DNA of 64,000 bases. It comes from a virus. Within the stretch, counting starts at the first letter, position 1, and each line of letters starts with the position of its first letter. The stretch covers positions 1 through 64,000 of the IMG/VR virus record IMGVR_UViG_3300024299_000011; one strand, 5' to 3'. The notes below the pieces were generated by a model. It was not told the DNA's origin. It was given only the letters and a program-made list of their open reading frames with translations, and searched no databases. Shown here piece after piece: positions 3,833-62,500 of the stretch. A program made the position numbers and the translations under genes.

Positions 3833-4411
3833 ATGAGCGGAATTAAAGTAGATGAACTGTCTCAGTTTCATGACTATAATGTGTATACTCCAGCCAGGTT
3901 AATTTACTTGACAGGAGATATAGACGAGGACACAGCTAGCGTATTTATCAAAAATATACGGTTAATGGACCATGTAACAGATAAAGACATAACCATCCTG
4001 ATAAACTCAGAAGGTGGTTGCGTTCATCAAGGAATGGCAATTTATGACGCCATAAAGGAATGTAATTCTAAAGTAACAACTCATGCAGTTGGTCCGTGCT
4101 ACTCTATGGCAAGTATAATTTTCCAAGCTGGGGACTTTAGGTTGATATCGTCCAACGCTACTATTATGATTCATATCGGAGACGAGGGTTACGGAAAAGA
4201 TCACCCAAAGAATATCGATCGATGGATAAAAGAGAATAGACGGATAGGGCAGGTAGCTGATAATGTATTATTTGAAAAGATTAAAAAGAAGAAGCCTAGG
4301 TTTAAAAAAGAGAAGTTTGATGAACTACTAGTCTTTGATACAATTTACACAGCAGAGCAGGCAGTAGAGATGGGCCTTGCAGATAAGATAGCAGAACATA
4401 AGGAGTTTTAA
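3833..4411 (+). CDS. ClpP-like serine protease
   Basis: A 192-residue S14-family peptidase. The nucleophile is Ser91 in GPCYSMAS, the His is His114 in IMIH, and the Asp lies in VFDTIYTAEQA near residue 168. The INSEGG segment and the GLADKI tail are also typical of ClpP. The length matches a single ClpP subunit without a long extension. No phage ClpX or ClpA partner is visible nearby, so it may work with a host unfoldase or alone. It sits with replication genes, far from the capsid block, which argues against a prohead protease. The start has only a weak SD but follows the upstream stop by two bases. The next gene begins on its stop codon (TAATG). Confidence 0.85.
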   Translation: MSGIKVDELSQFHDYNVYTPARLIYLTGDIDEDTASVFIKNIRLMDHVTDKDITILINSEGGCVHQGMAIYDAIKECNSKVTTHAVGPCYSMASIIFQAGDFRLISSNATIMIHIGDEGYGKDHPKNIDRWIKENRRIGQVADNVLFEKIKKKKPRFKKEKFDELLVFDTIYTAEQAVEMGLADKIAEHKEF

Positions 4412-10520: not shown

Positions 10521-10779
10521 CGACATTATAAAACATGAGAGATTTACTGACGTTGCTATACAGATATCAAAACCAGTATATGTTACAGATTCGGGAAAGC
10601 TAAAGATCAGAGGTAACTGGCTTAATACTGGTAATCCATCTTTTGTCATAGGCTCGATGAGGAATATGGTCGGAAAGTCAACATTGATAATACTTCCTGA
10701 TGAGATTGAGAAATGGAGCATATGTTTAGATCCAGATGCTACGCATTTGAAAGGAACTAAGTGGGGGAGTTTGAAATGA
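10501..10779 (+). CDS. Hypothetical protein preceding thyX
   Basis: A 92-residue protein from ATG 10501. The frame extends upstream to 10465, but that would overlap the previous gene by 56 bases. ATG 10501, with AAGG nearby and a 20-base overlap, is more likely. The sequence is beta-rich (VAIQISKPVYVTDSGKLKIR). It ends with an ATGA overlap into thyX, suggesting coupling. No domain recognised. Confidence 0.6.
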   Translation: MILPKYNDIIKHERFTDVAIQISKPVYVTDSGKLKIRGNWLNTGNPSFVIGSMRNMVGKSTLIILPDEIEKWSICLDPDATHLKGTKWGSLK

Positions 10780-12563
10780 AGGTTGAATTGATAGCAATGA
10801 CAAAAGTTGTAAATGAGAAATTACTTAAAGAACTAAAAAGTAATTCTCCAGCAGAATTAATAATGTATTGCGCTAGGGTATCTAATCCAAACGACCAGAC
10901 ATCCGGTAATACTAAATTATTAGAGTATTGCGCAAAACACAACCACTGGTCAGTATTTCAAATGAGTAATATGGTAGTTGAGATTGAAACAAGTAGAGCA
11001 ATAGCACAACAAATACTCAGACATTCTAGTTTTGATTTTCAAGAATTTTGTATGTCCGGAGATACTGAAGTTTATTTTGACTTACCTAACGCAATTAAAA
11101 AAGGTAAAAGAAGTTTAAGTAGAATGAAACTTAAAGATTTATATAGAAAATGGTCAGAAGGAGCCCTTCCTATAAAACACAGATACAGCGGTAAGATGCA
11201 AAAAATGGAGATGAAAAGCCGGATACGTAGTATGTTTGTTAGGGTATATGACGAAAAAACAAAGAAATTATCTCATGCCCACATAAAAGAGGTATTTAAA
11301 ACTGGCGTAAAAGATTTATTTGAAGTAGAATTAGAAAATGGAAAAAAGATTAAATGCACTAAAGAACATAAAGTACTCACTCAGTCTGGGTTCAAATCAT
11401 TAGAAGATGAATTTGGATTACAGTTAATTAATAATATTGCAGTAATAGAAAAAAATGGATTTATAGGATGTAATGGAATTCCTCTACACCAAAGTTATAC
11501 TTTTCTTAAAGAACAAAAGGAAATTCACTTAAAAACCGGAAATGGAGTTCAGGGGATTGCTGACGTATGTAACGTGTCCTATCATACAATAAGAAAGTGG
11601 CTTAAAATTCATAAACTACAATTCTCTAAACAAGAAACAGCAGACATGACAACTATAAACGGCGGGGTTTGGAATAAAGGAAAGTCTGGATACTCTTGGG
11701 GAAATCACAGTAAAGAAACCAGAGAAATAATGTCCAAAAAAGCAAGAAAAGGAAAAGACTCTAATTTTTGGAAGGGTGGAGTAACTAAAGAAAGGCAAAA
11801 AATACAAGCAGACATAAATAAGTATAGAATTGACATAATTAAAGATTATGGAGGTAAATGTGGGTTATGTGATAAAAAACTAAAAGGACAAACAGACTTA
11901 CATCACATTATCCCAGTTAGCGATGATATGTCATTATCTAGAGAATATTCTAATTTAATGCCAACTCATAGAAGATGCCACATGAAGCACCACAGTAAAG
12001 CTGGGGATTTGAAAAGGTGGAAAGAAGGTTCGAAAGGAAATACACTAACAGTTAATTGGGCTAAGATTAAAAAAGTTAAGTATTTAGGAAAAGAGATGAC
12101 ATACGATTTAGAAATAGATCACCCAAGTCATAATTACGTCGCAGACGGAGTTATAGTACATAATTCACAAAGATATAAAGAGATATCAGCGCTTGATGAC
12201 TCTTTTGAGATATATGGAGCACGGAGTCAAGATAAGAATAACAGACAAAATAGTATAGATAATATGTCAGATGACGATCGTTTATGGTTTGAGGCAGCTC
12301 AGTTGGACATACAACAAGAATCTGTGGATAAGTATGAAGAGGCGCTATCTAGAGGGGTCGCCAAAGAACAAGCCAGATTCCTGCTACCATTGAACGTTAA
12401 AACAAAACTATATATGAATGGGTCAATCAGATCTTGGATACACTATCTAATGGTTAGATGTAGACCAGAAACCCAGCTAGAACATAGAGAAATTGCTAAT
12501 GAGATAAGGTGTATATTAATAAAAGAGTTTCCAGAACTAAAAGAAACTTTAGATTTTACTTGA
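10776..12563 (+). CDS. thyX: Flavin-dependent thymidylate synthase, intein-containing
   Basis: ThyX makes dTMP from dUMP using FAD and methylene-tetrahydrofolate. The extein reads AELIMYCARVSNP, HWSVFQM, AIAQQILRHSS FDFQEF joined after splicing to SQRYKEI, and LPLNVKTKLYMNG with RSWIHYLMVRC near the end. The ThyX motif (RHRxxSxxxxSxRY type) is thus RHSSFDFQEFSQRY, with Ser in place of the third Arg. The 595-codon frame contains a 372-residue intein splitting that motif, leaving an extein of about 223 residues, which is normal for ThyX. ATG 10776 is preferred over GTG 10761 because GGGGGAG lies 6 bases upstream. It works with Dut and NrdJ in dNTP supply. A promoter for the next genes overlaps its stop. 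Confidence 0.95.
   Translation: MKVELIAMTKVVNEKLLKELKSNSPAELIMYCARVSNPNDQTSGNTKLLEYCAKHNHWSVFQMSNMVVEIETSRAIAQQILRHSSFDFQEFCMSGDTEVYFDLPNAIKKGKRSLSRMKLKDLYRKWSEGALPIKHRYSGKMQKMEMKSRIRSMFVRVYDEKTKKLSHAHIKEVFKTGVKDLFEVELENGKKIKCTKEHKVLTQSGFKSLEDEFGLQLINNIAVIEKNGFIGCNGIPLHQSYTFLKEQKEIHLKTGNGVQGIADVCNVSYHTIRKWLKIHKLQFSKQETADMTTINGGVWNKGKSGYSWGNHSKETREIMSKKARKGKDSNFWKGGVTKERQKIQADINKYRIDIIKDYGGKCGLCDKKLKGQTDLHHIIPVSDDMSLSREYSNLMPTHRRCHMKHHSKAGDLKRWKEGSKGNTLTVNWAKIKKVKYLGKEMTYDLEIDHPSHNYVADGVIVHNSQRYKEISALDDSFEIYGARSQDKNNRQNSIDNMSDDDRLWFEAAQLDIQQESVDKYEEALSRGVAKEQARFLLPLNVKTKLYMNGSIRSWIHYLMVRCRPETQLEHREIANEIRCILIKEFPELKETLDFT
11049..12164 (+). mobile_element. Intein with HNH endonuclease in thyX
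   Basis: A 372-residue in-frame insertion beginning CMSGDTEVYF (Cys1, block A) and ending SHNYVADGVIVHN with Ser as +1 residue, which are canonical splicing ends. Block B is CTKEHKV. The centre carries a helix-turn-helix-like stretch (GIADVCNVSYHTIRKW), a NUMOD3-like unit (HSKETREIMSKKA) and an HNH nuclease with a CGLC zinc knuckle, DLHHIIPV, NLMPTH and RRCHMKHH. All catalytic positions look present, so both splicing and homing may be active. The nuclease class differs from the LAGLIDADG type in the nrdJ intein. Confidence 0.93.
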
Positions 12564-15036: not shown

Positions 15037-15257
15037 TGTATTTAGTTGACCCTAAAAATGATTTAAAATCAGTTTCTCTGACGTTCTTAGTTGTATCTTA
15101 TATATTACTAGTTATAGCATCTGTATTACAAGCAGGAGAGTTAATCAAATCTGTTGGTTATTTACCTGAGTTATTTTATGCATGTTCTGCTTTATATTTT
15201 GGACGAAGAGTTAAAGTTGGATCAAAAACCTTTTCATCAGAGCCGGAGAAATCATGA
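15036..15257 (+). CDS. Small two-pass membrane protein
   Basis: A 73-residue protein from ATG 15036, which overlaps the previous stop (TAATG). GGGAG lies about 9 bases upstream, so this start is preferred over ATG/TTG candidates at 15021. Two hydrophobic stretches (LTFLVVSYILLVIASVL and LFYACSALYFG) are followed by a basic tail. No family recognised. It directly precedes the exported protease. Confidence 0.6.
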   Translation: MYLVDPKNDLKSVSLTFLVVSYILLVIASVLQAGELIKSVGYLPELFYACSALYFGRRVKVGSKTFSSEPEKS

Positions 15258-16102
15258 GAGTAATAATAACATTAATATTATTTATGGCAGCGACTATAAC
15301 CCAAGCAGCATTCAACCCAAAGACCAACGCAGACTTTTATGACACATCAGTTCGTGTATATAATTTGGAAATGAATAGCGGCGGAACCGGGTCAATCTTT
15401 AGGTCATACAAAAACGCAAGTCATATCCTGACTAATAAGCATGTATGTGCTTTAATAAAGCCAGGTGGTTACGTTAACTATAAAAATAAAGATTACATCA
15501 TCACTCACTATAAAGAATATAAGAGACATGACTTATGTCTGGTTCGTATAAACAAGGGACTAAAGATTAGCTTGAATATATCTCAAACTATATCTAAGGT
15601 ATCTCAAACTGTATATGTTTCAGGACATCCTAACTTATTACCTCATATTGTAACTAAGGGACATATATCTGATAATATGGATATCCAAATAATTACAGGT
15701 AATAGACCTTGTAATAAAAAAGAGATCATAGAAGATCCAGCAAGATGTTCATTCTTTGGAGGAATGCCCATCATAGAAGTATCAGAAAGCACTGTTGTAT
15801 CTAACTTAATTAAGCCAGGAAGTTCTGGTAGTGCTGTGTTTAATTCTGCAGGAGAGTTAGTTGGAGTTGTTTATGCTGGTAGCGGTAGAGGCTTTAGCCA
15901 CGGATTCATTGTACCTCATATATATCTACTATACTTTGTTCAAAATGCACATAGACAATCTTGGGTTAGAGTTGGGTTAAAGTCTAAAACTAAAGGATCT
16001 AATAGTTCTATTTTTAATTATGAAAACTGTACTGGGATTATCACTAAACCAATTAAAACTATATGTGATAGCATTCAAGACAACTTAATCTGGAGAAAAT
16101 AA
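15254..16102 (+). CDS. Exported trypsin-like serine protease
   Basis: A 282-residue protein with a signal peptide (MRVIITLILFMAATITQA, cleavage after QA). It has a chymotrypsin-fold triad: His in ILTNKHVC, Asp in KRHDLCLV and Ser in KPGSSGSAVF. The GELVGVV strand after the Ser is typical of S1/S46-like bacterial proteases. Several Cys residues (for example HVCAL, RPCNKK, RCSFF and ENCTG, ICDS) could form disulfides, fitting a periplasmic or extracellular location. Substrate is unknown. It is one of three exported protease-like proteins in this genome and has AGGAG-like SD just before the ATG. The role (lysis, receptor processing or defence) is open. Confidence 0.87.
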   Translation: MRVIITLILFMAATITQAAFNPKTNADFYDTSVRVYNLEMNSGGTGSIFRSYKNASHILTNKHVCALIKPGGYVNYKNKDYIITHYKEYKRHDLCLVRINKGLKISLNISQTISKVSQTVYVSGHPNLLPHIVTKGHISDNMDIQIITGNRPCNKKEIIEDPARCSFFGGMPIIEVSESTVVSNLIKPGSSGSAVFNSAGELVGVVYAGSGRGFSHGFIVPHIYLLYFVQNAHRQSWVRVGLKSKTKGSNSSIFNYENCTGIITKPIKTICDSIQDNLIWRK

Positions 16103-24484: not shown

Positions 24485-24892
24485 TTAAATAGTTAATATT
24501 GTTAGATCATATCTAGTTTCGGCCTGTAAGCCCCCGATATTAGTAATAGTCACTAAACTCGCATTCTGACTCCAAGAAATTACAGGTACTTGGGTCGGAA
24601 ATGAGGTGTTATCTGACGTAATAACAGATCTAACAGTCAATATTCCTTGTATTTTATTTACTATACCAGACTTAAAACTGACAGTATTTAAAGGCTGACC
24701 AGTAGCTCCTGTAGTAAACGACAAAGTCTTAACTTCCTGAGCTAGGTTATCAAAGTCTACGTTTTTAGCTAATACACTTCTGACTTGCTCATGAAATGAG
24801 TTAATAATGAATGCAAGCTTTCCTATGAGTTTCTGATCATCTTTATCAAAATCCTCAACGGTTACTCTTTTTAAATCAGGCGTCTTACCGAT
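24485..24892 (-). CDS. Virion-associated hypothetical protein, probable ATC start
   Basis: A 135-residue protein whose reading frame is open from the TAA of the upstream tail gene (24907-24905). The only conventional start is TTG 24724, which would remove about 56 well-formed residues (GKTPDLKRVTVEDFDKDDQ, KLAFIINSFHEQV). ATC at 24892-24890 follows GGAGG by exactly 6 bases, so I take it as the start. The C-terminal half is beta-rich and ends ITNIGGLQAETRYDL. Small proteins of this type commonly follow the tail protein in podovirus-like genomes. Read-through of the in-frame TAA is an alternative. The function is unknown, probably virion-associated. Confidence 0.7.
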   Translation of the reverse strand: MGKTPDLKRVTVEDFDKDDQKLIGKLAFIINSFHEQVRSVLAKNVDFDNLAQEVKTLSFTTGATGQPLNTVSFKSGIVNKIQGILTVRSVITSDNTSFPTQVPVISWSQNASLVTITNIGGLQAETRYDLTILTI

Positions 24893-24904
24893 AGCAGACC
24901 TCCA

Positions 24905-27900
24905 TTATGTCCAGGCCTTTTCAGATATAGGTCTAAATGTGTATGTTATTCCGTATAATGCAAACTTCTCTCTAGCACTGTTGAATATAAACTCAGCTTT
25001 AATGAATCTACATCTTTGTTTTTGTCTAGGGATATATGTTCTTAATGGAACCCCACTAAAACCTCCGCCCCAATTATGTTCTCCCCAAATAAATAAACCC
25101 CAGTCACCCTTACCTGATTTAGTAAAATCTATAGTTTGAAATCCTGGACTTAAGTCTGATGCATATCCAACAGTAGCTCTAGAAAAGTTATTATTTTCAA
25201 ATATAAAAGTACCCTCTCTAACGTGCTTAGATATAGACGGATCTCCTAATGGATCAGCAGAGTAAACTACATCACAATTAATACCTTTATATAAAGTAAT
25301 AGGACCTTCTATAAATTGAGTTGAGTACTGCATAACAACATCTGTTACGTTATTTTCTTTACCTACAATTAAAACCTCTTCTTCACTAGATCCAGTAGAT
25401 CCGTCGTAGTTTTGGTAAAATACACCAGCATCTAAATTTAACTTATTAATTACAGTATTAAAGGCTGCTTGGGTTTCTTCAAATGTAGAGACGTTAGCTG
25501 CCCAGTCACAAGTACCACCAACCGTAGTAGTAATATCTATTGAAAAGTTATTTGCATCCACTTTTGTTACAATATAATTACCGTCAATAACTGGAGTAGA
25601 TGTACTATTACTTATTGTTATAAATCTGCCAGTTTCTAATAAATGACCAACTTCAGTTATTACTGTAGGAGTTCCTAACGTCACTGTAGACCCAACTGCG
25701 CTACCAGGAGTTATAGATGTTAAATAATCAGTATCTGATACACCAGGATCTAAGTCTAATGATTGAGCTAAAGAGTTCAACTGCTGTGTTAAATTAACTC
25801 CTGGAGTTGCTTGTAAGTTTCCTAAGAAATCGCCAAACCCTTGACTAGTAACTGTTATTACAAAACCATTACCTATACCATTTAATACCCCATCAAAAGC
25901 GTCTGTAGTATCTCCATTACGAGTTGTTACAGTTTCAACCAACGGTCCAGTATTAGATGTAATAAATTCTAAAGAGGTGGTACTTAGTGTATTTTTTGTA
26001 AATAAAGCAACGTCAGAAGTTGTTACTGCAGTGGTTACGTCCACTCTAACTTGAACAGCATCAGCTATATCATTAAATATTAAAGTATCTAGCTCAGTTA
26101 ACGTTCCAATAGCATCATAAAATACAGCATATTTAGTGTTATCTGCTGCAGAGTATAATATATAATACTTACTATGTAAATCTAAGATAGATCCGGTATA
26201 CGAAGTAAAATCATAACTAGTTTGTTCTGGAGCACCTGTGCCAGGATCTAAATCTAATCTAGACAATAATTGATTAAACTCGGATATAGTTAAATATTGA
26301 GTCTGAACTACAGCGTCACCAACATCTACGTTTGAAGACGAGGATAACTTTAAGGTTGTGTCTGCAATAGAATCTGTAGGGATTGATAAAGCGAAGTCTC
26401 TATCCGCATAATCAGTACGATCAAACAGCTTACGTTCTTGCTCTATAAAATTCTCATCATCAGGACCTAAGTATAGTTTATCATTTGATTGATTAACTAT
26501 CCCACAAGTTTTAGCTATGGTAAATATAGTGAAACTATTTGTCACAGTACTATACCTTAAGCACTGTGTTGCAACAGTATCTGTCTCGGAACTTGGAAGC
26601 CATAAAAGATATGACCTATCTGTTTCATAAGACACTCCGAAGGAATTAAACTTAAAATCATATCCTGAACTACTAACTAGCTTAACGATATCATCAATAT
26701 CCTTAGATATAATATTAACACCAGTATCTGATATAATTGCTATACCTTGGTTAGTTAGACAATATATTTGGTTATTTAAAACCACAGCAGTATCTGGGGC
26801 AATTATCTTAGTAGATTCATCAAATAAATCCACAGCATAAACACCGTTAGATCCAGTCAATCTATATATACCATCATCTTTTAATATGAATAAACTCTCT
26901 CTTAATGCTAATATTCTTTGTATCTCTTTATCTTCAGGACCAATGTCTATGAAATTTAATAAAGGAACAGCTTCTGGTTGTTGTAACTTAGCATAATAAA
27001 CTCTATTAGGTTTAGTTTCTGTCTCTCCAGAAAAAGTCTGAGCACCAACGGAAGGTGGTAATGCTGGATTAAACACATCTCCTGTAGCGGCATTATTAGC
27101 TGTAATCGTAAATTGATTAATTCCAATATCTCTACTCTCAAAAAGTATAAGACCAGGAAGATCACTTGCTCCTGATATATAAAATGCATATACAGTTCCG
27201 CTTGAATTTCTATTAATTATATTAACTAAAGATCTAGCAGTCTCATCTATCTGTTGAGATGGGCTTGCAGCGGCTGAGAGTAATACTTTATTAGTAGAAG
27301 AATCTTCTCCAATACCTTGCTGAGTTACTGTTACAGTAAAGCTATTAGCTATACCAGCTATAGCACTATCTACAGCATCAGTGGTGTCTCCGTTATTAGT
27401 TGTAGTTAAAGTAACTAATGTACTTGCTGCAGTATATGCTACATCAAAGTCTGCAGCGGTATCTTGGTCTAATATTGCAGCGGCAGTAGCATCGGCAACT
27501 TGAGCTACAGTAGTAACCCCCCTACTAACATTAACCTTAAATCCAGTTCTTCCTACAACATCTGTATGAGTAACAATGTCGTTAGCTGGATCGCTATTTA
27601 CTGGAGTAATTGCTGTGTAAGAAAATCCCTTTTGAAGGTCCTCAAGTGATATTAATCTAGATGAATCAATAGACTCTGAATCAACAGTTATTATCGTAGC
27701 TGGTGCTGTATGAGTAACATCAAAATCGCTATTAATATCATTCAATACTATAGCCTGTGCAGTTAAATCTGCTAATTCTTCTATCAATGTTGTATTTGGT
27801 GCATTTATAGATATAGTGCTTACATCAACTCTAATACCTATCATCCCTAATAAAGGAGTTCCAGACAATGTACCAGGATCTATTGTACCACCTTTATCAA

Positions 27901-29224
27901 ACCAAACATAATAAGTAACACTAGTATCTGGAGTATAAAGAACAATAACCTTACCCTCTACATCATCAGCTATTACCCCAACGTAGTTAGTAAAATCTAA
28001 AGTCTGTGTTGTTTTTGTATCATCATACCATACATAATATTTACGCTTATCTCCTGCAGAATTAACTAAACAATACTTACCGTCTAGGTCTGCCGGAATA
28101 GCTCCAGAGTATGCACTATATTCTAATTCGGTGATTTCTTTTCCACCTTGAAATGTATATACTTGTGCAGGATTAATAGTGTCGTCAATAGTTATCGATG
28201 ATGTTCCACTAACCAGTCCTTGAACTGTTAATAATCCTAAGTCTTTCCTTGCTCTTCCAATAGTATTTCCATAAAATAATGTACTTTGATACATTGTAAT
28301 ATCTTTAGCTTTTGGAGGAGGTTCGTTTGCTTGATCTATACCATCTCCAGAATTTGGATTAGTATATAAAAAAGTACCACCGCTTCTGAAATCCTCTGGC
28401 GCAATATCTTCTACAGATACAATGTCACCTGGAACTGAGGTTGTTACAAAGTCTTCGATAACTAATTGCATTTCATCACCAGGATCTATATCTTCTACAG
28501 TAAGACTTCCTACTGTAGTAAATACTGCAGTACGGTATACTTGATAAAAATATATACTAGTATCCACGTTATCTGGTATAACAAAGCTTAAATTAACATT
28601 AGCGTTTGCTTGAGTAAAGTTAGAAATAACTAATCTTGAACTTGGAGATCCTAATAATAAATTATCATTATTATCTTTATATCCCCATACGATTCTATAT
28701 GCTACTTCGCTACTTGGAGGCAAATATCCGTCAGCATTACTAACTAAGTCACCAGTAACATCTAACGCCTTAGCTGCACCCGAATCTATTATAAAATCTG
28801 CTGCTGTAGTGAAGTCTGCTGCTGTTTTAGCTGATATCTTCTTTACGCCATCATCTGTAGTAAAGTATAGGTTCTTATTGGACTCAAATGCTCGTATACG
28901 ACGACCATCTTCAATCTCACTGAATGTACCAGAGAATGCTTGAAAGTTACCGTCAGCGTTGTTTTCGTGAGAATTATCGTTATATAATAGAGTATTGTTA
29001 TTGTGTACTAATACCCTGTCTTTGTATGAAATAAGTTGATTTGCTCTATCAGAACTTGTGCCAAAAGTGTTACCAAACTGTGAAAACCCACGTCTAGATT
29101 CTACTATATCGTCACGGTCGATGATCACATTGTCAGCAACAGTCATAGCTCCTTCAGGAACAGAACCTAGTTGGTTTGAGTCAGTGAACAGGCCACGCGC
29201 CTTCAAAAGAGTTTTTTGGCTCAT
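24905..29224 (-). CDS. Large podovirus-type tail tube/nozzle protein
   Basis: A 1439-residue, beta-rich protein beginning MSQKTLLKARGLFTDSNQ with SVPEGAMTVADNVIIDRDDI. This is the start style of T7 gp12-like tail tubular B and P22 gp10-like stabilisation proteins. A central portion (LRESLFILKDDGIYRLTG, VVLNNQIYCLTNQGIAII) looks like propeller repeats. The end (LRTYIPRQKQRCRFIKAEF) is also typical. It is larger than those relatives because of repeated insert modules: units containing YYVWYD/YYVWFD/YAVFYD followed by NGDTTDA and GI.NSF.VTV occur at least twice. SD AAAGGA lies 5 bases before the ATG. It is the key structural gene of the tail block. Confidence 0.82.
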   Translation of the reverse strand: MSQKTLLKARGLFTDSNQLGSVPEGAMTVADNVIIDRDDIVESRRGFSQFGNTFGTSSDRANQLISYKDRVLVHNNNTLLYNDNSHENNADGNFQAFSGTFSEIEDGRRIRAFESNKNLYFTTDDGVKKISAKTAADFTTAADFIIDSGAAKALDVTGDLVSNADGYLPPSSEVAYRIVWGYKDNNDNLLLGSPSSRLVISNFTQANANVNLSFVIPDNVDTSIYFYQVYRTAVFTTVGSLTVEDIDPGDEMQLVIEDFVTTSVPGDIVSVEDIAPEDFRSGGTFLYTNPNSGDGIDQANEPPPKAKDITMYQSTLFYGNTIGRARKDLGLLTVQGLVSGTSSITIDDTINPAQVYTFQGGKEITELEYSAYSGAIPADLDGKYCLVNSAGDKRKYYVWYDDTKTTQTLDFTNYVGVIADDVEGKVIVLYTPDTSVTYYVWFDKGGTIDPGTLSGTPLLGMIGIRVDVSTISINAPNTTLIEELADLTAQAIVLNDINSDFDVTHTAPATIITVDSESIDSSRLISLEDLQKGFSYTAITPVNSDPANDIVTHTDVVGRTGFKVNVSRGVTTVAQVADATAAAILDQDTAADFDVAYTAASTLVTLTTTNNGDTTDAVDSAIAGIANSFTVTVTQQGIGEDSSTNKVLLSAAASPSQQIDETARSLVNIINRNSSGTVYAFYISGASDLPGLILFESRDIGINQFTITANNAATGDVFNPALPPSVGAQTFSGETETKPNRVYYAKLQQPEAVPLLNFIDIGPEDKEIQRILALRESLFILKDDGIYRLTGSNGVYAVDLFDESTKIIAPDTAVVLNNQIYCLTNQGIAIISDTGVNIISKDIDDIVKLVSSSGYDFKFNSFGVSYETDRSYLLWLPSSETDTVATQCLRYSTVTNSFTIFTIAKTCGIVNQSNDKLYLGPDDENFIEQERKLFDRTDYADRDFALSIPTDSIADTTLKLSSSSNVDVGDAVVQTQYLTISEFNQLLSRLDLDPGTGAPEQTSYDFTSYTGSILDLHSKYYILYSAADNTKYAVFYDAIGTLTELDTLIFNDIADAVQVRVDVTTAVTTSDVALFTKNTLSTTSLEFITSNTGPLVETVTTRNGDTTDAFDGVLNGIGNGFVITVTSQGFGDFLGNLQATPGVNLTQQLNSLAQSLDLDPGVSDTDYLTSITPGSAVGSTVTLGTPTVITEVGHLLETGRFITISNSTSTPVIDGNYIVTKVDANNFSIDITTTVGGTCDWAANVSTFEETQAAFNTVINKLNLDAGVFYQNYDGSTGSSEEEVLIVGKENNVTDVVMQYSTQFIEGPITLYKGINCDVVYSADPLGDPSISKHVREGTFIFENNNFSRATVGYASDLSPGFQTIDFTKSGKGDWGLFIWGEHNWGGGFSGVPLRTYIPRQKQRCRFIKAEFIFNSAREKFALYGITYTFRPISEKAWT

Positions 29225-37744: not shown

Positions 37745-38221
37745 TTATTGAGCTAAGCTTTTAGCTCTAAAATGTATTACACCAGAATAATTTAAAGAAT
37801 TTATATCATTTGATTTATATTGAACTTGTCCACCTGAAGTAAGATCAAAATCTACTCCAGAGTTACCAACAACATTACCGATAGCTATAGACCACCCAAC
37901 GTTATTATCATAAATAAGGTGCATTTCACCAGTCTCAGCAAAACCAGACGGGTTTGCAGTAGAAATTCTATAAACTGAATATTGAACAACAGCAGATCTT
38001 ACTGCTGCGTTATTGAAAACTAGGCCTATTATATCAGCAAGTGTTGCTTGATTATTCACAATATTGAACGAAGATTCTAATATATCATTAGGCCCAACAA
38101 CGTCATTTAATACGCTAGTAACCTCTTCTGCCCATTTAGTTGCATCTGAGCCCCAGCCTGGTTCATCACCTTTAGTTGGATACGAAAACGGTTTGTTATT
38201 GACGATCAATGTTTTAGGCAA
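37745..38221 (-). CDS. Short fibre-tip-like protein
   Basis: A 158-residue protein starting at TTG 38221 with AGGGG 6 bases upstream. Its last 110 residues (SFNIVNNQATLADIIGLVFN, VRSAVVQYSVYRIS, GQVQYKSNDIN) align by eye with the C-terminal domain of the fibre at 31995. It is the first gene behind late promoter copy b. It could be an interchangeable tip or adhesin that assembles with a fibre; this is inference. Confidence 0.72.
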   Translation of the reverse strand: MPKTLIVNNKPFSYPTKGDEPGWGSDATKWAEEVTSVLNDVVGPNDILESSFNIVNNQATLADIIGLVFNNAAVRSAVVQYSVYRISTANPSGFAETGEMHLIYDNNVGWSIAIGNVVGNSGVDFDLTSGGQVQYKSNDINSLNYSGVIHFRAKSLAQ

Positions 38222-39884: not shown

Positions 39885-40331
39885 ATGATAACAATGAAGA
39901 TTGAGATACCAGTTGGATCTAATGTTAAGTATGAGATAGATAAAGTTACTGGAGAGTTGAGGGTTGACCGACTGTCAAAACTGACATATCCTGCAACATA
40001 TGGGTACATAAAAGATACGTTAGCTGAAGATGGGGACCAATTAGATGTGTTCTTATTAGGAAGTGACGTGTATATTCCAGGATCTATAATAGATGTTGAT
40101 ATATTAGGGATGCTTGAAATGTCAGACAATGGGATTGTTGATAATAAAGTAATAGCTAAGGTTCATTGTGATAATTTAGGAGTAGCTCAAGATTACTTAG
40201 ATAGGCATGTTAGGGTTATAAAGACTTTCTTGAGGAACTATAAAGAGAATACTATTGTAGGTAACTATGTAGATAAATCTGATACTGTTGAGTATTATGA
40301 AAAATGTAAGGAAGTTTATGAAAAGAAGTGA
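39885..40331 (+). CDS. ppa: Soluble inorganic pyrophosphatase (family I)
   Basis: A 148-residue enzyme that hydrolyses pyrophosphate to phosphate, pulling DNA synthesis forward. The family signature is clear: IEIPVGSNVKYEIDKVTGEL, YPATYGYIKDTLAEDGDQLD (metal-binding Asp cluster) and DNGIVDNKVIAKV. The length is a little short of the 170-175 residues of bacterial enzymes, from a trimmed C-terminus. It begins at ATG 39885 with AGGAG 6 bases upstream. It lies in the small lysis-side island rather than next to polymerase or NrdJ, but would serve replication. A phage-encoded pyrophosphatase is uncommon. Confidence 0.92.
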   Translation: MITMKIEIPVGSNVKYEIDKVTGELRVDRLSKLTYPATYGYIKDTLAEDGDQLDVFLLGSDVYIPGSIIDVDILGMLEMSDNGIVDNKVIAKVHCDNLGVAQDYLDRHVRVIKTFLRNYKENTIVGNYVDKSDTVEYYEKCKEVYEKK

Positions 40332-41443: not shown

Positions 41444-42775
41444 TTAAGTTAAGATTAATGAATATATATTATTAGTACTTTCCATTATTTTTATAAATCC
41501 ATTTTTTTTGAGCATAGCTGGGCCACTCTTTGATCCATCGTAATCACTTCCCAATATTCCCGGAAGTTTGTGCTTCATTAACTTTTGTCTACTATACTTA
41601 ACTCCATCTTTAATGTAATGATAACTTCTCTCAGTTTCTCCAATATAACTAAACCCCAAAGCTAAATACACCTTCCCTCCATTCTTATAACTAGACACAG
41701 CATAGGACAGTATACTATCTGGATTATATTCTTTTATAAAGGCCTTTAGTAACTTACTGGCCCCACCAACAACAACAATACTCCCTTTATAACATAACCT
41801 ATACAACTCCCATTTAAACTCAACTCTCCTACCCCTAGGAACACCGAAGCTCATTAAACAAACCAACTCCTCTTCATAATACAATCCATAACAAACCGTT
41901 GTAGGTATACTTTTTTGTCTATGATATTTATCTAAGAATGATTTATGTTCAGACCATCCGACCTTACGTACCTTGCATTTTCTGGCATATATTTTAGATA
42001 TAGAGTCAGCATAGCACCAGGAATATCCTTTATACTTCTTATTGTTTAATATAGATCTTCTTATACCGGTTTTATCAAAACCACCTACACTGGCGTCTAC
42101 ACCTGACTTAAAATACAACTTATCTCCATTATCATTTACGCCAATAAATGGTCTGGCGGTAGTTTTTCTATCTCTATAAGATTGCTTAAACTCTGATTTT
42201 GTTAAGGTTTTTATTGGATTCTTCTCCCTATACTGCCTAGTTTGGCTTATCTGACAACTCTTACAGATCCTCATTAACTTATCCCAAGTTTTATTATAAA
42301 CATTAAATCCACTTAAAGGGAAAACTAAATTACACTTAGTGCATTTTTTACAAGAAATATCGTTAACTTCAATATGGTGATTTCTATTATACGCTATAAT
42401 GGGTTCTTTTAAATTCTTGTAATACTCCTTTCTTGACTCTGATATCTTTAATTTAGTTTCTTCAGTATAAACAACTCTACTGTCTATAATATTTACCGTA
42501 TTATATCCTTTAGGTGCTATACTATTGTTTTCCTTTATGTAGTATTCTTCCCTGGCAGCTATATTATCAAAAGGTATATTATCTTCAAGGACCGTCGTAG
42601 TGAATTCGTTCCAAGAATACTTCTTTAACGCTCTGTAGAATACTGTACAACTCTTGTATGAATTATAGGTCTTATCTGACTTTCTCCACCTTCTAGCTGT
42701 AGTTTGAATAGTTGAGCCTATATAGACTTTACCGTTAATCTTGTTTTCGTGTTTATATATTATCCCAGTTTTCAT
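41444..42775 (-). CDS. GIY-YIG homing endonuclease with GNAT-like C-terminal domain
   Basis: A 443-residue free-standing homing endonuclease. GIIYKHENKINGKVYIGST is the GIY-YIG core, with TTARRW as the Arg helix and REEYYI as the Glu. A NUMOD3-like unit (TEETKLKISESRKEYY), a zinc finger (CKKCTKCNLVF, ICKSC) and a further NUMOD-like unit (YFKSGVDASVGGFDKTG) follow. Residues 250-443 (YGLYYEEELVCLMSFGVPRG, VVVGGASKLLKAFIKEY, LALGFSYIGE) form an acyltransferase-like domain often attached to phage homing enzymes. It has its own consensus promoter giving a leaderless mRNA and lies downstream of the capsid gene terminator, so it can be expressed independently of late genes. Confidence 0.88.
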   Translation of the reverse strand: MKTGIIYKHENKINGKVYIGSTIQTTARRWRKSDKTYNSYKSCTVFYRALKKYSWNEFTTTVLEDNIPFDNIAAREEYYIKENNSIAPKGYNTVNIIDSRVVYTEETKLKISESRKEYYKNLKEPIIAYNRNHHIEVNDISCKKCTKCNLVFPLSGFNVYNKTWDKLMRICKSCQISQTRQYREKNPIKTLTKSEFKQSYRDRKTTARPFIGVNDNGDKLYFKSGVDASVGGFDKTGIRRSILNNKKYKGYSWCYADSISKIYARKCKVRKVGWSEHKSFLDKYHRQKSIPTTVCYGLYYEEELVCLMSFGVPRGRRVEFKWELYRLCYKGSIVVVGGASKLLKAFIKEYNPDSILSYAVSSYKNGGKVYLALGFSYIGETERSYHYIKDGVKYSRQKLMKHKLPGILGSDYDGSKSGPAMLKKNGFIKIMESTNNIYSLILT

Positions 42776-42908: not shown

Positions 42909-44129
42909 TTAATTAACTATTCCTTTTACAAGACAATTCTTGCCAGGAGCGTAGCACAAAAGCGCTTGATCGCTGTATGCTCTTAATTCATATCCTGCAG
43001 CATTTTCTAACTCACGGAAGAAAGTGTCACCTTGATCAGGACGGTTGAATGTGATATCACTAGAACCAATTCTTAACATTTCTTCTTCACAAAGAACATA
43101 AGAAAATCCTTCTTTAACATAAATGCTAGGAACGATTTCTACTTTACCATTTTGGCCGTAGAAAGTGATTTCTTGATGTCCAGCTTCTGAAACAGAAACA
43201 CTGTAAGAACTATCATACTGACGTAGAGCAGTTTGCTCAGTTAAAAGGTCAGACCAAGTTCTAGGGTTAACGAAAACACATACGTTGCTATCAAGACCTT
43301 TTTCAACTGCACGAGCAATTGCATCTTGAACCTTAGCGAAAGAAAGAGGATTTCCAGCTAAATCGATTTCGTTACCTTTCCAAAGGTTATATTGAGAAGC
43401 ATCTATGCCGAATAAAACTCCAGTATTAGTTAGTATCTTATGGATACCAGCAGCTTCTTTACCTTTAGCACCTTTATAATAGATGATGTCAGTGGCAACA
43501 GTACCAGCAGGCATCGCATCTACAGTGATTTCACGAGTATCCATGTCAATTCCTGAAATCTGAGCAGTACCACGTAAAGTAGTAGAAGTAGCATCATAGA
43601 TGTCAATCTTCATAGCTTCAGAACCAGCGAATATTCCAGGTGCCCAATCAGCAGTAGTAACAACTAAAACGTTACCTACAGGAAGTGCATCTACAGATCC
43701 TATGCCAACACCACCATAAAACAAACCAACTTCAAGTCTTTTAGACATTGAACGAAGCATGTTTCTTACTAGGAACTTAGTAGCGTTTTCAAATGCTTTT
43801 GGCTCTCCACCAGCAGCTCTTGAAGCAGCAGCGATACCAAGACGAGATCTAAGCATCATTTGTGAACCTTGAACAGAAGCGTCACGGATTACACCGTTAA
43901 CAGCGTCATCTAATGCGAAAGCATCGTCAGTTGGTCCAGCATAAGTAATACCGTGCTCTAGGCCTAATATTACAGGTTGGTGATATAAGCTACCTAAAGC
44001 TTTCTTTCTTCCAGAAAATGGAACTTTCTGCATGAACTTTGTTCCTTCTGGGATTAAATTTTCTAATTTATCTGCGTATATTTCTTTAAATAAACCATTT
44101 AGTGTGGTTATGGTATTTTCTCCAGCGAT
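42909..44129 (-). CDS. Major capsid protein, ATC start
   Basis: A 406-residue HK97-fold-type capsid protein. Segments such as SLYHQPVILGLEHGITYAG, NATKFLVRNMLRSMSKRLE, ADWAPGIFAGSEAM and KVQDAIARAVEKGLDSNVCV match capsid proteins of N4-like and related podoviruses. No ATG, GTG or TTG lies between the upstream stop and ATG 44033, yet the 32 codons before that ATG read as (M)AGENTITTLNGLFKEIYA and DKLENLIPEGTKF, the usual start of this family. ATC at 44129-44127 follows AAGGAG by 6 bases and is followed by an Ala codon, so I take it as the start. It is preceded by late promoter copy c and followed by a strong terminator, as expected for the most abundant virion protein. Confidence 0.88.
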   Translation of the reverse strand: MAGENTITTLNGLFKEIYADKLENLIPEGTKFMQKVPFSGRKKALGSLYHQPVILGLEHGITYAGPTDDAFALDDAVNGVIRDASVQGSQMMLRSRLGIAAASRAAGGEPKAFENATKFLVRNMLRSMSKRLEVGLFYGGVGIGSVDALPVGNVLVVTTADWAPGIFAGSEAMKIDIYDATSTTLRGTAQISGIDMDTREITVDAMPAGTVATDIIYYKGAKGKEAAGIHKILTNTGVLFGIDASQYNLWKGNEIDLAGNPLSFAKVQDAIARAVEKGLDSNVCVFVNPRTWSDLLTEQTALRQYDSSYSVSVSEAGHQEITFYGQNGKVEIVPSIYVKEGFSYVLCEEEMLRIGSSDITFNRPDQGDTFFRELENAAGYELRAYSDQALLCYAPGKNCLVKGIVN

Positions 44130-44294
44130 AATGTGCTCCTTGGTTATTATACGTTATTTACATATAATTGTTGATATTTATTGTTTATTATTTAATGATA
44201 TGTGCCAAATAATTAATCAATATTACGGGTTTACCAAGAAGCTCCAAACGGCGTACTTCCGATTCCAACAAAATATAACATAATATATTGCTCT

Positions 44295-55273: not shown

Positions 55274-55302
55274 TTGACTTTATATATTTAATGTATTATT
55301 AT
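55274..55302 (+). promoter_or_regulatory. Sigma70-like promoter, leaderless type
   Basis: TTGACT (55274-55279), 17 bases, TATTAT (55297-55302). The predicted start (about 55309) is within one base of ATG 55310. The upstream ATG 55301 overlaps the -10 box and cannot be on the transcript. Confidence 0.78.
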
Positions 55303-55309
55303 GGAATGT

Positions 55310-55969
55310 ATGAAATACTTATTATTTACATTATTTTTTACAAATATAGCTTATTCTAAACAGTTAAGAGTCGCAGTGATAGATACTGGGATACAAAAAG
55401 CATACACTAAGCAAGCTAATCTATGCAAATCAGGACATAAGTCTTTTGCTAAAGATAAGAGTGTAGTTGATACGCATGGACATGGTACAAATATTGCAGG
55501 ATTGATAAAAAATAAGGCTGGTAAATCTAAATACTGTATAATAGTAATACGATTTTATTCTAACGGTGCCGGAGACCTTTCAAAAGCGTTTATAAGATCT
55601 TTAGAATATGCTTATATATTGAAGCCGGATATACTTAATTTAAGTGGTGGTGGGCTCTTCTCCGATAAAAGAGAACGTCTAATTATAAAGAGAATCTTAG
55701 ACAAAGGTATTATAGTCAACGCCGCAGCGGGTAATGAGAGTTTAAATCTAGACAATAACTGCCTTTACTATCCTGCGTGTTACGATAAAAGAATAAATGT
55801 AATAGGGGCTAAGAATGTACCTCAATCCAATTATGGAAAGATTGTTGATTATACTATAAATGGTAAGGATCGAAAAGCCTTTGGGATAACACTTTCCGGA
55901 ACAAGTCAATCTACTGCAATTTTCACAGGATTGATGATTAAGGCGTTTGGTATGTATGGGGTTTATTAA
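55310..55969 (+). CDS. Exported subtilisin-like serine protease
   Basis: A 219-residue S8 protease. MKYLLFTLFFTNIAYS is a signal peptide. The triad is Asp in RVAVIDTG, His in DTHGHGTNIAG and Ser in LSGTSQSTAIFTG, with the oxyanion Asn in NAAAGNES. The catalytic domain follows directly after the signal peptide with no pro-domain, and at about 200 residues it is compact compared with the 270 or so of bacterial subtilisins. ATG 55310 is chosen because the promoter predicts a leaderless mRNA beginning there, and because the signal peptide then has a normal n-region. The function in the phage cycle (envelope protein cleavage, lysis, release) is unknown. Confidence 0.88.
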   Translation: MKYLLFTLFFTNIAYSKQLRVAVIDTGIQKAYTKQANLCKSGHKSFAKDKSVVDTHGHGTNIAGLIKNKAGKSKYCIIVIRFYSNGAGDLSKAFIRSLEYAYILKPDILNLSGGGLFSDKRERLIIKRILDKGIIVNAAAGNESLNLDNNCLYYPACYDKRINVIGAKNVPQSNYGKIVDYTINGKDRKAFGITLSGTSQSTAIFTGLMIKAFGMYGVY

Positions 55970-58604: not shown

Positions 58605-59036
58605 ATGGAAAAAGAATTAATGATATTAGTAGGGCCTATAGGTTCTGGTAAAACAACTTTTTCTAAAACACTTGAGAACGACACGTCTATTCGTATATCG
58701 CAAGATGAGATGGGTAGGAAAGCTTATCTAGAGCATTTTAAAGCAGCTATCCGTAATGAAGTTCCAAGGATATTAATTGATCGTCAAAACTTCAATAAAG
58801 AGCAACGTGAAAGATTTATAAAACCAGCTAGAGAAGCTGGGTACTGTGTGACCGTATTTGAACTAAAAACAAATACTGCTACATGTATAGAAAGAGTTGT
58901 TACTAGAGTTGGTCATCCGACTGTTGTAAGCGGAGATGTTGAGTTAGCTCAAGAGATAGTAAATAGGTATTTGATTAACTACGAAGCACCTACAGCAGAT
59001 GAATATGATAATTTAAATATAGTGGAGGAATTATGA
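58605..59036 (+). CDS. Polynucleotide kinase-like P-loop enzyme
   Basis: A 143-residue kinase domain of the T4 Pnk/AAA_33 type. It has Walker A GPIGSGKTT (residues 10-18), a SQDEMGR segment as in nucleic-acid kinases, the Arg/Gln-rich LIDRQNFNKEQRERF lid segment and FELKTNTATCIERVVTRVGHPTV. The C-terminal phosphatase domain of T4 Pnkp is absent, but a phosphoesterase is fused to the ligase at 60809. It would phosphorylate 5'-OH ends of broken RNA before ligation. GGGAGG lies just before the ATG. It is the first enzyme of the RNA-repair cassette. Confidence 0.85.
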   Translation: MEKELMILVGPIGSGKTTFSKTLENDTSIRISQDEMGRKAYLEHFKAAIRNEVPRILIDRQNFNKEQRERFIKPAREAGYCVTVFELKTNTATCIERVVTRVGHPTVVSGDVELAQEIVNRYLINYEAPTADEYDNLNIVEEL

Positions 59037-59368
59037 GCGAATATGTTCCAAATAGATGGGAATTAATCCAGTTTAAAGGTAAAGAAACTAACTATAAAAT
59101 ACTAGGATCTTGGTCTGGCGGGTATGTTGATGGGGATAGTTGGAGATTATCATCCGGAGTAAAAAGCATAGAAGATGGTGGTGATTTTTATCTAGTAAAA
59201 AACCACTCAGGATCATTATACAGGTGCAGAAAAACTAGTAGAGGTATGAACATAGTAAGTGCTGGGGTATTTGATTCAATTTTAGATGAAGCGAAATTAG
59301 TGGATGGTTTAGAAGTATCTATAATAGATATAAAAGATTATTTAAAGGGGGGTATTAATGGATTATGA
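59033..59368 (+). CDS. Hypothetical protein with SWSGGY motif
   Basis: A 111-residue protein with the segment ILGSWSGGYVDGDSWRLSSG, a pattern I associate with conserved phage proteins of unknown function. It is compact and beta-rich. GGAGG precedes the ATG, which overlaps the kinase stop. It lies between the kinase and ligase genes. Confidence 0.65.
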   Translation: MSEYVPNRWELIQFKGKETNYKILGSWSGGYVDGDSWRLSSGVKSIEDGGDFYLVKNHSGSLYRCRKTSRGMNIVSAGVFDSILDEAKLVDGLEVSIIDIKDYLKGGINGL

Positions 59369-59657
59369 ATCAATAAAGTTTGAATATATACAACACTTTC
59401 ACAAAGAAGAGGGGTGTGGTCATGATATAAAGATACCAAACTCTGATGTATTTATTATTTTAGAAGAGTTTCCATATCTAGAGATATATGATAAAGAGTA
59501 TTCTGACAAACTAGGATCTGGTTACTTTTATGTTAGGAAGGTTGGAGAAATGACAGCAGAGCACTCTATGACTTATTATAAAGATATGTATAATTTAATT
59601 AGATTAGATTATGATGCGTTATATCAACGAGTACAAGACATAACGTTGGAATTTTAA
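59358..59657 (+). CDS. Hypothetical protein
   Basis: A 99-residue acidic protein (MDYESIKFEYIQHFHKEEGC) with many Tyr and Glu residues. AAGGGG lies upstream, and it overlaps the previous gene by 11 bases. No family recognised. Confidence 0.62.
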   Translation: MDYESIKFEYIQHFHKEEGCGHDIKIPNSDVFIILEEFPYLEIYDKEYSDKLGSGYFYVRKVGEMTAEHSMTYYKDMYNLIRLDYDALYQRVQDITLEF

Positions 59658-59878
59658 TGACAACTGTATCACTATCAATAGAAGAGTTTGATAAGATGAG
59701 AGAAGATCATATTGCTTTTAATAAAATAAAACATCTATGCAAACATCTTATAATAAAAGAAACAGATAAGATGCGACCAGAAGAGAGAGTGTTTGCTGGA
59801 GAAGGTGGGCAAGAGTATCTTGGTTTAAACCACAGGCAGATGGAATTACTATTATTAAAGATAAGGAAGTTGGTGTAA
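59657..59878 (+). CDS. Small hypothetical protein
   Basis: A 73-residue helical protein (MTTVSLSIEEFDKMREDHIA) with HLCKHLIIKE and a C-terminal helix (RQMELLLLKIRKLV). TAATG coupling with the previous gene; the Rnl2-like ligase gene follows directly. Confidence 0.62.
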   Translation: MTTVSLSIEEFDKMREDHIAFNKIKHLCKHLIIKETDKMRPEERVFAGEGGQEYLGLNHRQMELLLLKIRKLV

Positions 59879-59879
59879 T

Positions 59880-60812
59880 ATGTTTAAAAAATATAATTCA
59901 ATTGAAAATTCATATCAACAGAAGTTTATTTTAAGAATGTTAGAACAATACCCTGAACTAAAGGATGCTAAGTATTCTATTAGGGAAAAATTAGATGGGT
60001 CTAACTTACAATTATATTTTGAGACTAACAAACAAATGAGAGTCGGTAAAAGAACTTCCTTTTTAGAAGAAGGTGATAAGTTCTTTGATGTATGGAGTAC
60101 TCTTAAAAAATACGAACCTCAGGTAATAAAACTACAACAATACGTTGATAATTACGGATGTCACTGTACCGTTAGGGTATTTGCCGAGTTATACGGTAGT
60201 GGAGTACAAAAAAGAATAAATTACGGAGAAGAAAAGAGTATATCTTTTTTTGATATAGAAATTAATGATAAGATGTTATCTCAGAAACAATTTGAACAAA
60301 TTATGGCAGATTTACAAATTGATAATATAGCGCCTTTATTAAAGTATGTTGGCAGTTTAAAAGAAGCACTAGAATATAGTCCTGACTTTAATAGTAAAGT
60401 ACTTGGGGTAGAAAATAACCCATCTGAAGGCATAGTTATTAAACCTTATGAAAGAGAATACTACAGTAAAGTAGGATCTAGATTCTTATTAAAGAAAAAG
60501 GCTGATGCATTTTCTGAAAAAATGAAAGTAAAGCCTGGGAAGAAGCGTACTGACGAAGTCACTAAAATAGTTAACGCTAAAATTGAGTTCCAGTCTTATA
60601 TAAATGACAATCGAGTTAAGAGTACTTTCTCTAAGCATGGAGAGATAGAATCTCCGGACCAACTTGGAAAGTATATTCAATTAGTGTTGGCCGATGCTAA
60701 GGGTGATTTCTTAAAAGAATATAATATTTCTGATTTAGATGATAAGGAGCTTAAGAAAATATACGGCTCTGGCGGAAAACACATAGTAGCATTACTTAAA
60801 GGGTATTTATGA
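59880..60812 (+). CDS. T4 Rnl2-like RNA ligase
   Basis: A 310-residue ATP-dependent RNA ligase. The adenylated Lys is Lys37 in motif I IREKLDGSNLQ. Further nucleotidyltransferase motifs are RVGKRTSFL, FAELYGSGVQKRINYG (motif III area), NPSEGIVIKP (motif IV) and RFLLKKKADAF (motif V). The C-terminal 90 residues form a helical domain like that of Rnl2. Rnl2 enzymes seal 3'-OH/5'-phosphate nicks, best in duplex RNA. It overlaps the next gene by 4 bases (ATGA), and the two ligases probably act on different substrates. Confidence 0.92.
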   Translation: MFKKYNSIENSYQQKFILRMLEQYPELKDAKYSIREKLDGSNLQLYFETNKQMRVGKRTSFLEEGDKFFDVWSTLKKYEPQVIKLQQYVDNYGCHCTVRVFAELYGSGVQKRINYGEEKSISFFDIEINDKMLSQKQFEQIMADLQIDNIAPLLKYVGSLKEALEYSPDFNSKVLGVENNPSEGIVIKPYEREYYSKVGSRFLLKKKADAFSEKMKVKPGKKRTDEVTKIVNAKIEFQSYINDNRVKSTFSKHGEIESPDQLGKYIQLVLADAKGDFLKEYNISDLDDKELKKIYGSGGKHIVALLKGYL

Positions 60813-62500
60813 AACGCTGGTTTACTTCAGACATTCACCTAGGACACAGGAACGTTATAGAGTATTGTGCTCGCCCCTACGCTAACGTTCATGAAATGGA
60901 TAAAGCAATAATTGAACAATGGAATTCGCAAGTAAATCCTGAAGATGAAGTATATTTTCTAGGGGACTTTGGTATTAATAAAAGAAAAGCTTTAGATAAA
61001 GAATTAGTTAATAGTTTGAACGGCGTCAAATATATAACATTAGGTAATCATGATTCTGGCTTCGTTCGTTGGCATAATAAAAAAAATATAGAAAGTATAG
61101 TCAATGGTTATATAAAATCGGGATGGGATGGTTGTGGGATTGAAGACCATCTATTACTGAAGAATGGGGTTGAAGTTATTATGACACACTTGCCTCCAGA
61201 TAATAGTAGAGATACTCGTTACTCTAAATTTAAACTAGAAAACGATCCTAATAAAATATATTTAAGTGGACATCTTCATGGAATGTATCGCAAGAAAGAT
61301 AATATGATTGATGTTGCGTTTGATGGGGAGCTTAAGTTATTATCTGAAGATGATATAGTTAATTTAATAGAAGATGAGAGGTCGTTTATTCCAACAAGAT
61401 TAACAGAGCATTATAAAGAAGAGAATCTATTCCTGAAACCATTTGAAGATGAAGTTAAGAAGAAGAATTTACGTAAAGTTGTTAAAGGAGATCTTGTACT
61501 TTATAACTATACAGATAAATGTACGTTTGATAGAGCTTGGAATGAAGTTACAATACATTCTCGTGGGCTAATCTTAAATAGAACTACAGGAGCTTTTGTT
61601 GCTGTCCCTTTTGAAAAGTTTTGGAATATAAATGAAATGCCAGTTACTCAATTAGAGAACCTTCCAGATGAACCATATACAGTTACAGACAAGTGCGACG
61701 GTTCGTTAGGTATAATCCACCATCATAACAACAAATGGAACGTAGCAACTCGTGGGGCATTTTCTAGCCCACAAGCAGTAAAGGCTGAGGAGATATTAAA
61801 GAAATACGATATGAGTAAAGTATACACAAAATTAACCTTACTTGTTGAGATCATATATCCTGAAAATAAAATTGTTGCTAATTACGGAGATGATGAGAAG
61901 TTAGTTTTACTTTCGATGGTAGATAGAGAGTCACAGCAAGAGCAAACTAGAATCCAGTGTGGTATGATATCAAAATGTACTGGAATTGAATTAGTTAAAG
62001 AGTATAACCATACAATAGAAGAAATGATTGAACTAAAGAAGACCATACCTAAAGATGAAGAGGGTTTCGTTGTTAGATTTGAGTCAGGATTGCGTGTTAA
62101 GATAAAAGGTGACGAGTATTGTAGAATTCATAAAATGATATCGCGCATGAGTCCCTTATCTTTCTGGGAATCTATGGATGATGGTAATGTTAACATCGAT
62201 TATCTACAGGAATTGCCTGAAGAGTTTCGTGACGAGGCTGAGGAGATAACAGATAAGCTAGAATCTCAGTATAAAGACTTGCTTATAGAAACATCGGAAG
62301 CGTTTAATGAAATTAAGGTAAAACTTGGACTATGTATATCAGAAAGTCTAACTGAAGATAAAAAGAAGCTTGGGTTGTATATAAAGAAACATCAACCAAA
62401 GCATGCTACCATATTCTGGGCATATTATTTAATGAGACCTGATAATATTGATAAATATATAAAAAGGATTATTAGACCAAAGGGGAATGAGTATATTTAA
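60809..62500 (+). CDS. Metallophosphoesterase-RNA ligase fusion
   Basis: A 563-residue two-domain protein. Residues 1-180 are a calcineurin-type phosphoesterase: TSDIHLGH, FLGDFG, LGNHDSG, MTHLPPD and LSGHLHG. After a linker, residues from about 200 form an RNA ligase of the RnlA/DRB0094-like type: HSRGLILN, motif I TDKCDGSLG with Lys295, ATRGAF, LVEIIYPENKIV, EGFVVRF (motif IV) and LRVKIKGDEYCRIHK (motif V). A helical C-terminal domain follows. The phosphoesterase could remove 2',3'-cyclic phosphate or 3'-phosphate ends, the kinase at 58605 supply 5'-phosphate and the ligase seal. This resembles a bacterial Pnkp (kinase-phosphatase-ligase) whose kinase is encoded separately. Confidence 0.9.
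   Translation: MKRWFTSDIHLGHRNVIEYCARPYANVHEMDKAIIEQWNSQVNPEDEVYFLGDFGINKRKALDKELVNSLNGVKYITLGNHDSGFVRWHNKKNIESIVNGYIKSGWDGCGIEDHLLLKNGVEVIMTHLPPDNSRDTRYSKFKLENDPNKIYLSGHLHGMYRKKDNMIDVAFDGELKLLSEDDIVNLIEDERSFIPTRLTEHYKEENLFLKPFEDEVKKKNLRKVVKGDLVLYNYTDKCTFDRAWNEVTIHSRGLILNRTTGAFVAVPFEKFWNINEMPVTQLENLPDEPYTVTDKCDGSLGIIHHHNNKWNVATRGAFSSPQAVKAEEILKKYDMSKVYTKLTLLVEIIYPENKIVANYGDDEKLVLLSMVDRESQQEQTRIQCGMISKCTGIELVKEYNHTIEEMIELKKTIPKDEEGFVVRFESGLRVKIKGDEYCRIHKMISRMSPLSFWESMDDGNVNIDYLQELPEEFRDEAEEITDKLESQYKDLLIETSEAFNEIKVKLGLCISESLTEDKKKLGLYIKKHQPKHATIFWAYYLMRPDNIDKYIKRIIRPKGNEYI

Follow-up and report, generated by a model that had tools for sequence, protein, structure and literature searches.

Apparent AUC initiation of a phage major capsid gene and recurrent ATC and ATT starts in virion genes of its relatives

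The capsid gene and its surroundings

The window analysed here comprises 64,000 nucleotides (positions 1 to 64,000) of the 70,290-base IMG/VR virus record IMGVR_UViG_3300024299_000011. Its major capsid protein gene, when read from an ATC codon, occupies 42909-44129 on the minus strand and encodes 406 amino acids. The product matches the major head protein family PHROG 14242 in a profile comparison (E 4e-21), nearly end to end, and the HK97 fold is predicted for it by AlphaFold (pLDDT 85); Foldseek comparison of this model with the PDB returned the capsids of SU10, SPO1, and HK97. By profile match and modelled fold, the protein is a member of the HK97-fold major capsid proteins, and it differs from its PHROG family in the start codon of its gene, ATC in place of ATG. 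The gene preceding the capsid gene stops 232 nt upstream, and directly downstream lies a homing endonuclease-like gene whose product combines a GIY-YIG domain with a C-terminal half resembling Mom (41444-42775, minus strand).

Mobile elements and nucleic acid enzymes are found elsewhere in the window and in related records. The ribonucleotide reductase and ThyX genes (5110-7701 and 10761-12563, plus strand) each contain an intein with a homing endonuclease domain. In at least 10 relatives (L034, L036, L038, L039, L047, L050, L058, L059, L061, and L068) the capsid gene carries an insertion that in most cases splits it close to residues 48-61 and often contains stop codons, which gives these insertions an intron-like appearance. 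The capsid gene of L046 is split near residue 14 (around position 3000), and the interrupting sequence ends with AAGATATAGTCC, recalling the 3' terminus of group I introns; in Rfam, nothing matched this insertion at the gathering score. The plus strand of the window also carries three protease-like genes of the ClpP, trypsin-like, and subtilase-like types (3833-4411, 15254-16102, and 55301-55969), an inorganic pyrophosphatase gene (39885-40331), and an RNA repair set (58605-62500) consisting of a kinase-like AAA protein, an Rnl2-like ligase, and an Rnl1-like ligase with a metallophosphatase domain, the last in a phage without tRNA genes. Host labels derived from binning conflict, since the relatives L074, L075, and L076 fall within MAGs labelled Proteobacteria, Bacteroidales, and Alphaproteobacteria.

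The start region of the capsid gene

Downstream of an in-frame TAA (44156-44154), the capsid frame reads CGT ATA ATA ACC AAG GAG CAC ATT ATC GCT GGA GAA AAT ACC. The first-pass annotation had claimed that this frame lacks ATG, GTG, and TTG from the upstream stop to ATG 44033, and the sequence bears this out: the first canonical in-frame start is Met33 (44031-44033), preceded by 32 codons at the coordinates originally given. It had also described an AAGGAG, which is present as a Shine-Dalgarno sequence at 44136-44141 and ends 6 nt before the ATC at 44127-44129, and an Ala codon after this ATC, which reads GCT. Across all frames of the 45 nt that precede the ATC, the only canonical start codon is an ATG followed directly by TAA. 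Initiation at the ATC would yield the predicted N-terminal peptide AGENTITTLNGLFK, with its Met present or absent.

Alignment with related capsids, proposed at the outset as a check, places the ATC exactly on the start ATG of the relatives. The corresponding positions read ATG GCT GGT GAA AAT ACA in L002 (82% identical) and ATG GCC GGA GAA AAT ACG in L004 (87% identical), with a similar Shine-Dalgarno sequence before each. All capsid relatives with a readable N-terminus begin with ATG, although N-terminal length is variable and the L046 locus is split at that point. Among 41 aligned capsids, that of the window is alone in lacking an initial Met. The segment encoded by codons 2-32 (44034-44126) includes a predicted helix at residues 7-18 and K15, Y18, and P27, which are three of the 25 residues invariant among the 41 sequences; all three would be lost with a Met33 start. 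Comparison with the two closest relatives gave pN/pS of 0.055/0.73 and 0.041/0.60 for codons 2-32, values that indicate strong purifying selection. Because of the low pN/pS and the invariant residues, this segment appears to have been translated through most of its divergence. A pattern scan of IMG/VR revealed no other capsid gene with an ATH start, the chance matches lying mostly inside other open reading frames.

A second probable ATC start in this record

A check of all genes of the record against the relatives G001, G002, and G003 revealed a second gene that appears to start at ATC. This gene of the virion region (24485-24892, minus strand) encodes 135 amino acids, and its orthologues align with it at residue 1. 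Its start region reads TAA TGGAGG TCTGCT ATC GGT AAG ACG, so that GGAGG (24899-24903) lies 6 nt before the ATC (24890-24892). The ATC aligns with the starts of the orthologues, which are ATG in G002 (76% identical), GTG in G001, and ATG in G003. The earliest canonical codon in this frame is a TTG located 56 codons into the gene.

Distribution of non-canonical starts in the family

The frequency of such starts was surveyed in about 2.06 Mb of sequence, nearly all from 50 related records, by identifying codons that align with the start ATG of homologues and are preceded by a Shine-Dalgarno sequence. Canonical starts with a Shine-Dalgarno sequence numbered 2010 (1959 ATG, 34 GTG, and 17 TTG). Six non-canonical starts (five ATC and one ATT) were left after removal of off-by-one alignments, and no CTG, ATA, ACG, AAG, or AGG start passed the filters in this survey. 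The six occur in virion genes or genes of the virion region; they fall in four records, a clustering that is no more than suggestive (P = 0.056). In addition to the two genes of the window, they comprise the gene after the capsid gene, which starts with ATC in G022 and G026 and ATT in G035, and a gene of G035 for a 1404-amino-acid internal-virion-like protein (PHROG 511), which starts with ATC. The window homologues of these genes have canonical starts, TTG for the former (37745-38221, minus strand) and ATG for the latter (24905-29224, minus strand). The ATT of G035 is the weakest of the six cases because an in-frame GTG, without a Shine-Dalgarno sequence, is present at codon 7. No family match was found for the ATC-started genes other than the capsid gene and the 1404-amino-acid gene, and when IMG/VR was scanned by pattern for more ATH-started versions of the gene that follows the capsid gene, only the known records and chance matches, mostly within other open reading frames, were retrieved.

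A homology-free scan required a strong Shine-Dalgarno sequence at 5-7 nt, an open frame spanning 50 codons or more, and no canonical start upstream or nearby. Among the non-canonical codons, ATC ranked highest with five sites, which are the same five found by homology, and every other codon had two at most. Several candidates were discarded on inspection: apparent AAT, TTT, ATA, and ATT starts were off-by-one alignments beside a real ATG, an apparent GCA start in L166 reflected an interrupted capsid gene, and an ATC in the G028 homologue of the 1404-amino-acid gene has a GTG two codons upstream. A possible CTG start, with GGAGG at 6 nt and 75 codons, was noted at position 17549 (plus strand) of L180, from the relative G025.

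Sequence context of the ATC and ATT starts

The six sites were compared with a background of 1814 canonical starts, each having some Shine-Dalgarno sequence. AAGGAG, GGAGG, or a longer match at 5-7 nt precedes 6/6 ATC and ATT sites vs. 12.7% of the canonical starts (p 4.5e-6). Two pyrimidines stand directly before the codon at all six sites, compared to 19.7% of the canonical starts (p 6e-5), a pattern recognized post hoc. The effective number of sites is five if those of G026 and G035 represent a single inherited event. The leaders align poorly outside of the Shine-Dalgarno sequence, and no folding signal indicative of a conserved leader structure was detected at the start sites.

Evolution of the ATC and ATT starts

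Phylogeny of the capsids recovers G021, G022, G026, and G035 as a single clade (SH-aLRT 99), distant from the window record and its relatives G001 and G002. G026 and G035 are sisters, as also in the tree of the gene that follows the capsid gene (99/99). The proteins encoded by the latter gene in these sisters are 70% identical, with pS of 0.59, and the start is ATC in one and ATT in the other; for these reasons the simplest view is that a pyrimidine-ending AUY start has been kept since the ancestor of G026 and G035. ATC and ATT starts appear to have originated on two or more occasions within the family, affecting different genes. G022, G026, and G035 share a non-canonical start in the gene that follows the capsid gene; the capsid genes related to that of the window begin with ATG.

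Probable initiation at AUC and its precedents

To our knowledge, AUC start codons are almost unknown. Reconstruction of 61,358 ancestral prokaryotic AUG starts revealed switches to GUG and UUG, two to CUG, and one to AUU, but none to AUC, a result limited by annotation (PMC5622118). The start codon of infC is ATT in E. coli, and in Streptomyces it is ATC (PMC5472188). Conserved AUU (cvfC1) and AUA (ccpN) starts with extended Shine-Dalgarno sequences are found in S. aureus (PMC13009471). The phage genes share with infC (AUU/AUC/AUA) an AUH start where AUG is expected and a strong Shine-Dalgarno sequence (PMC5472188; PMC13009471); as in genes of the infC type, no canonical in-frame start precedes the conserved coding sequence, AUH occupies the position of Met1 of the homologues, and the Shine-Dalgarno sequence is well spaced. 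They differ in that infC is a host regulatory gene held low by IF3, while the phage genes include that of the major capsid protein. The S. aureus genes likewise combine a conserved non-canonical start with an extended Shine-Dalgarno sequence, but there the start limits initiation of host genes, and the codons are different and do not include AUC (PMC13009471). The sigR gene of Streptomyces is another natural protein-coding gene with a rare start, although its codon is GTC rather than ATC and IF3 repression has been demonstrated for it (PMC5472188). The literature searched contained nothing relevant on ATC or AUU starts in phages.

The reading favored here, with a probability of about 0.8, is that AUC 44129 of the capsid gene and AUC 24892 of the second gene start translation in an infC-like manner by means of strong Shine-Dalgarno sequences, and that AUG was repeatedly replaced by AUC or AUU in virion genes of the family. 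The ATC start that the first-pass annotation claimed for the capsid gene is supported by alignment with the ATG of relatives, purifying selection, the invariant residues before Met33, and recurrence in four records. Strong Shine-Dalgarno pairing would set AUC in the ribosomal P site, where the initiator tRNA would be accepted despite the mismatch at the third position; a few family members would have exchanged the AUG of virion genes for AUC or AUU repeatedly and then kept it. Initiation at AUC is inferred to use fMet-tRNA and to be efficient enough for capsid supply, or to be derepressed late through a loosening of IF3 control.

Two observations fit this reading poorly. AUC and AUU starts are weak where measured (PMC10303841, PMC13009471), as in a B. 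subtilis rny mutant with AUC, in which expression was much lower (PMC10303841), so use of AUC for the most abundant virion protein is surprising. Furthermore, no other capsid gene read in this family has an ATC start. The low activity of AUC and the need for capsid protein might be reconciled by late derepression linked to IF3, by a change in the initiator tRNA, or by a message so abundant that the efficiency of AUC suffices.

Alternative explanations

In part of the family, AUC and AUU might instead constitute a dedicated third class of start codons for virion genes, read in late infection by a GAU-type or otherwise altered host pathway. This proposal appears rather unlikely; if true, capsid synthesis would be tied to changed initiation rules. 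A GAU anticodon reads AUC better than AUU and leaves out AUA, CUG, and ACG. The specific version, in which a host tRNA with this anticodon initiates, either as an altered initiator or as elongator tRNA-Ile after damage to tRNA-fMet, agrees with the observed codon set of five ATC, one ATT, and no ATA. The phage encodes an RNA repair set with a PNK-like protein and two RNA ligases, and VapC, by cleaving tRNA-fMet, reportedly promotes initiation at elongator codons (PMC3905216). However, with only ~5 independent events, chance alone would give no ATA with a probability of roughly 10%, and RNA ligase homologues are also present in relatives that use only ATG. A phage-encoded altered initiator is not indicated either, as neither the record nor the relatives checked contain a tRNA gene or an Rfam element. 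No initiator-like tRNA core with GAT was found in 399 genomes of one phylum, which may not be that of the host. Initiation by a GAU tRNA is therefore considered quite unlikely.

Errors of sequencing or assembly, or a minority or defective variant of a working phage that has ATG, could in principle account for the ATC codons, which are one base apart from the ATG carried by the relatives of the window capsid. Such contigs do contain errors, as seen in G002, a relative whose capsid gene has a broken frame and whose sequence includes runs of N. An error would nevertheless have to produce the same change at two separate starts of one otherwise intact record, in which TATGG is not depleted (158 occurrences vs. 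144 in G001 and 168 in G003), arguing against a systematic ATGG-to-ATCG artefact. It would also have to recur at four further ATC or ATT starts in three other records, with no ATA, CTG, ACG, AAG, or AGG, and would give no reason for the association with strong Shine-Dalgarno sequences. Sequence accuracy can be gauged from G035 (L098-L101) and G049 (L107), assemblies of the same phage from two metagenomes, which differ at about 3 of 11,889 bases (99.975% identity) in an overlap that ends short of the G035 ATT start. Because the ATC and ATT starts recur across genes and related records, error is decidedly unlikely, and they look like a real, recurrent departure from normal start-codon use.

Production of the capsid protein from Met33, with the 32 preceding codons no longer translated, is highly improbable even though ATG 44033 has AAGGA 9 nt upstream. 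It is opposed by the strong purifying selection on codons 2-32 and would remove the predicted helix together with three of the 25 invariant residues, while Met33 itself is not conserved among family capsids. It would also leave the second ATC gene unexplained, in which the first canonical codon is the distant TTG. Finally, entry into either gene from upstream by frameshifting or stop-codon read-through is scarcely credible: the second gene shares its frame with the gene upstream, one TAA lying between them, and a 6-codon ATG mini-ORF overlaps its start site, but the relative frame of these two genes varies among relatives, and the capsid gene is separated from the previous gene by the 232 nt noted above, with its lone nearby upstream ATG running straight into TAA.

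Significance of the apparent AUC and AUU starts in virion genes

Gene callers restricted to ATG, GTG, and TTG would truncate or miss genes that start with ATC or ATT. The ATC and ATT sites offer natural material on how Shine-Dalgarno strength and the preceding nucleotides may offset a codon mismatch. If the AUC start of the capsid gene is real, the late gene with the heaviest expression can be served, or regulated, by a non-canonical start codon.
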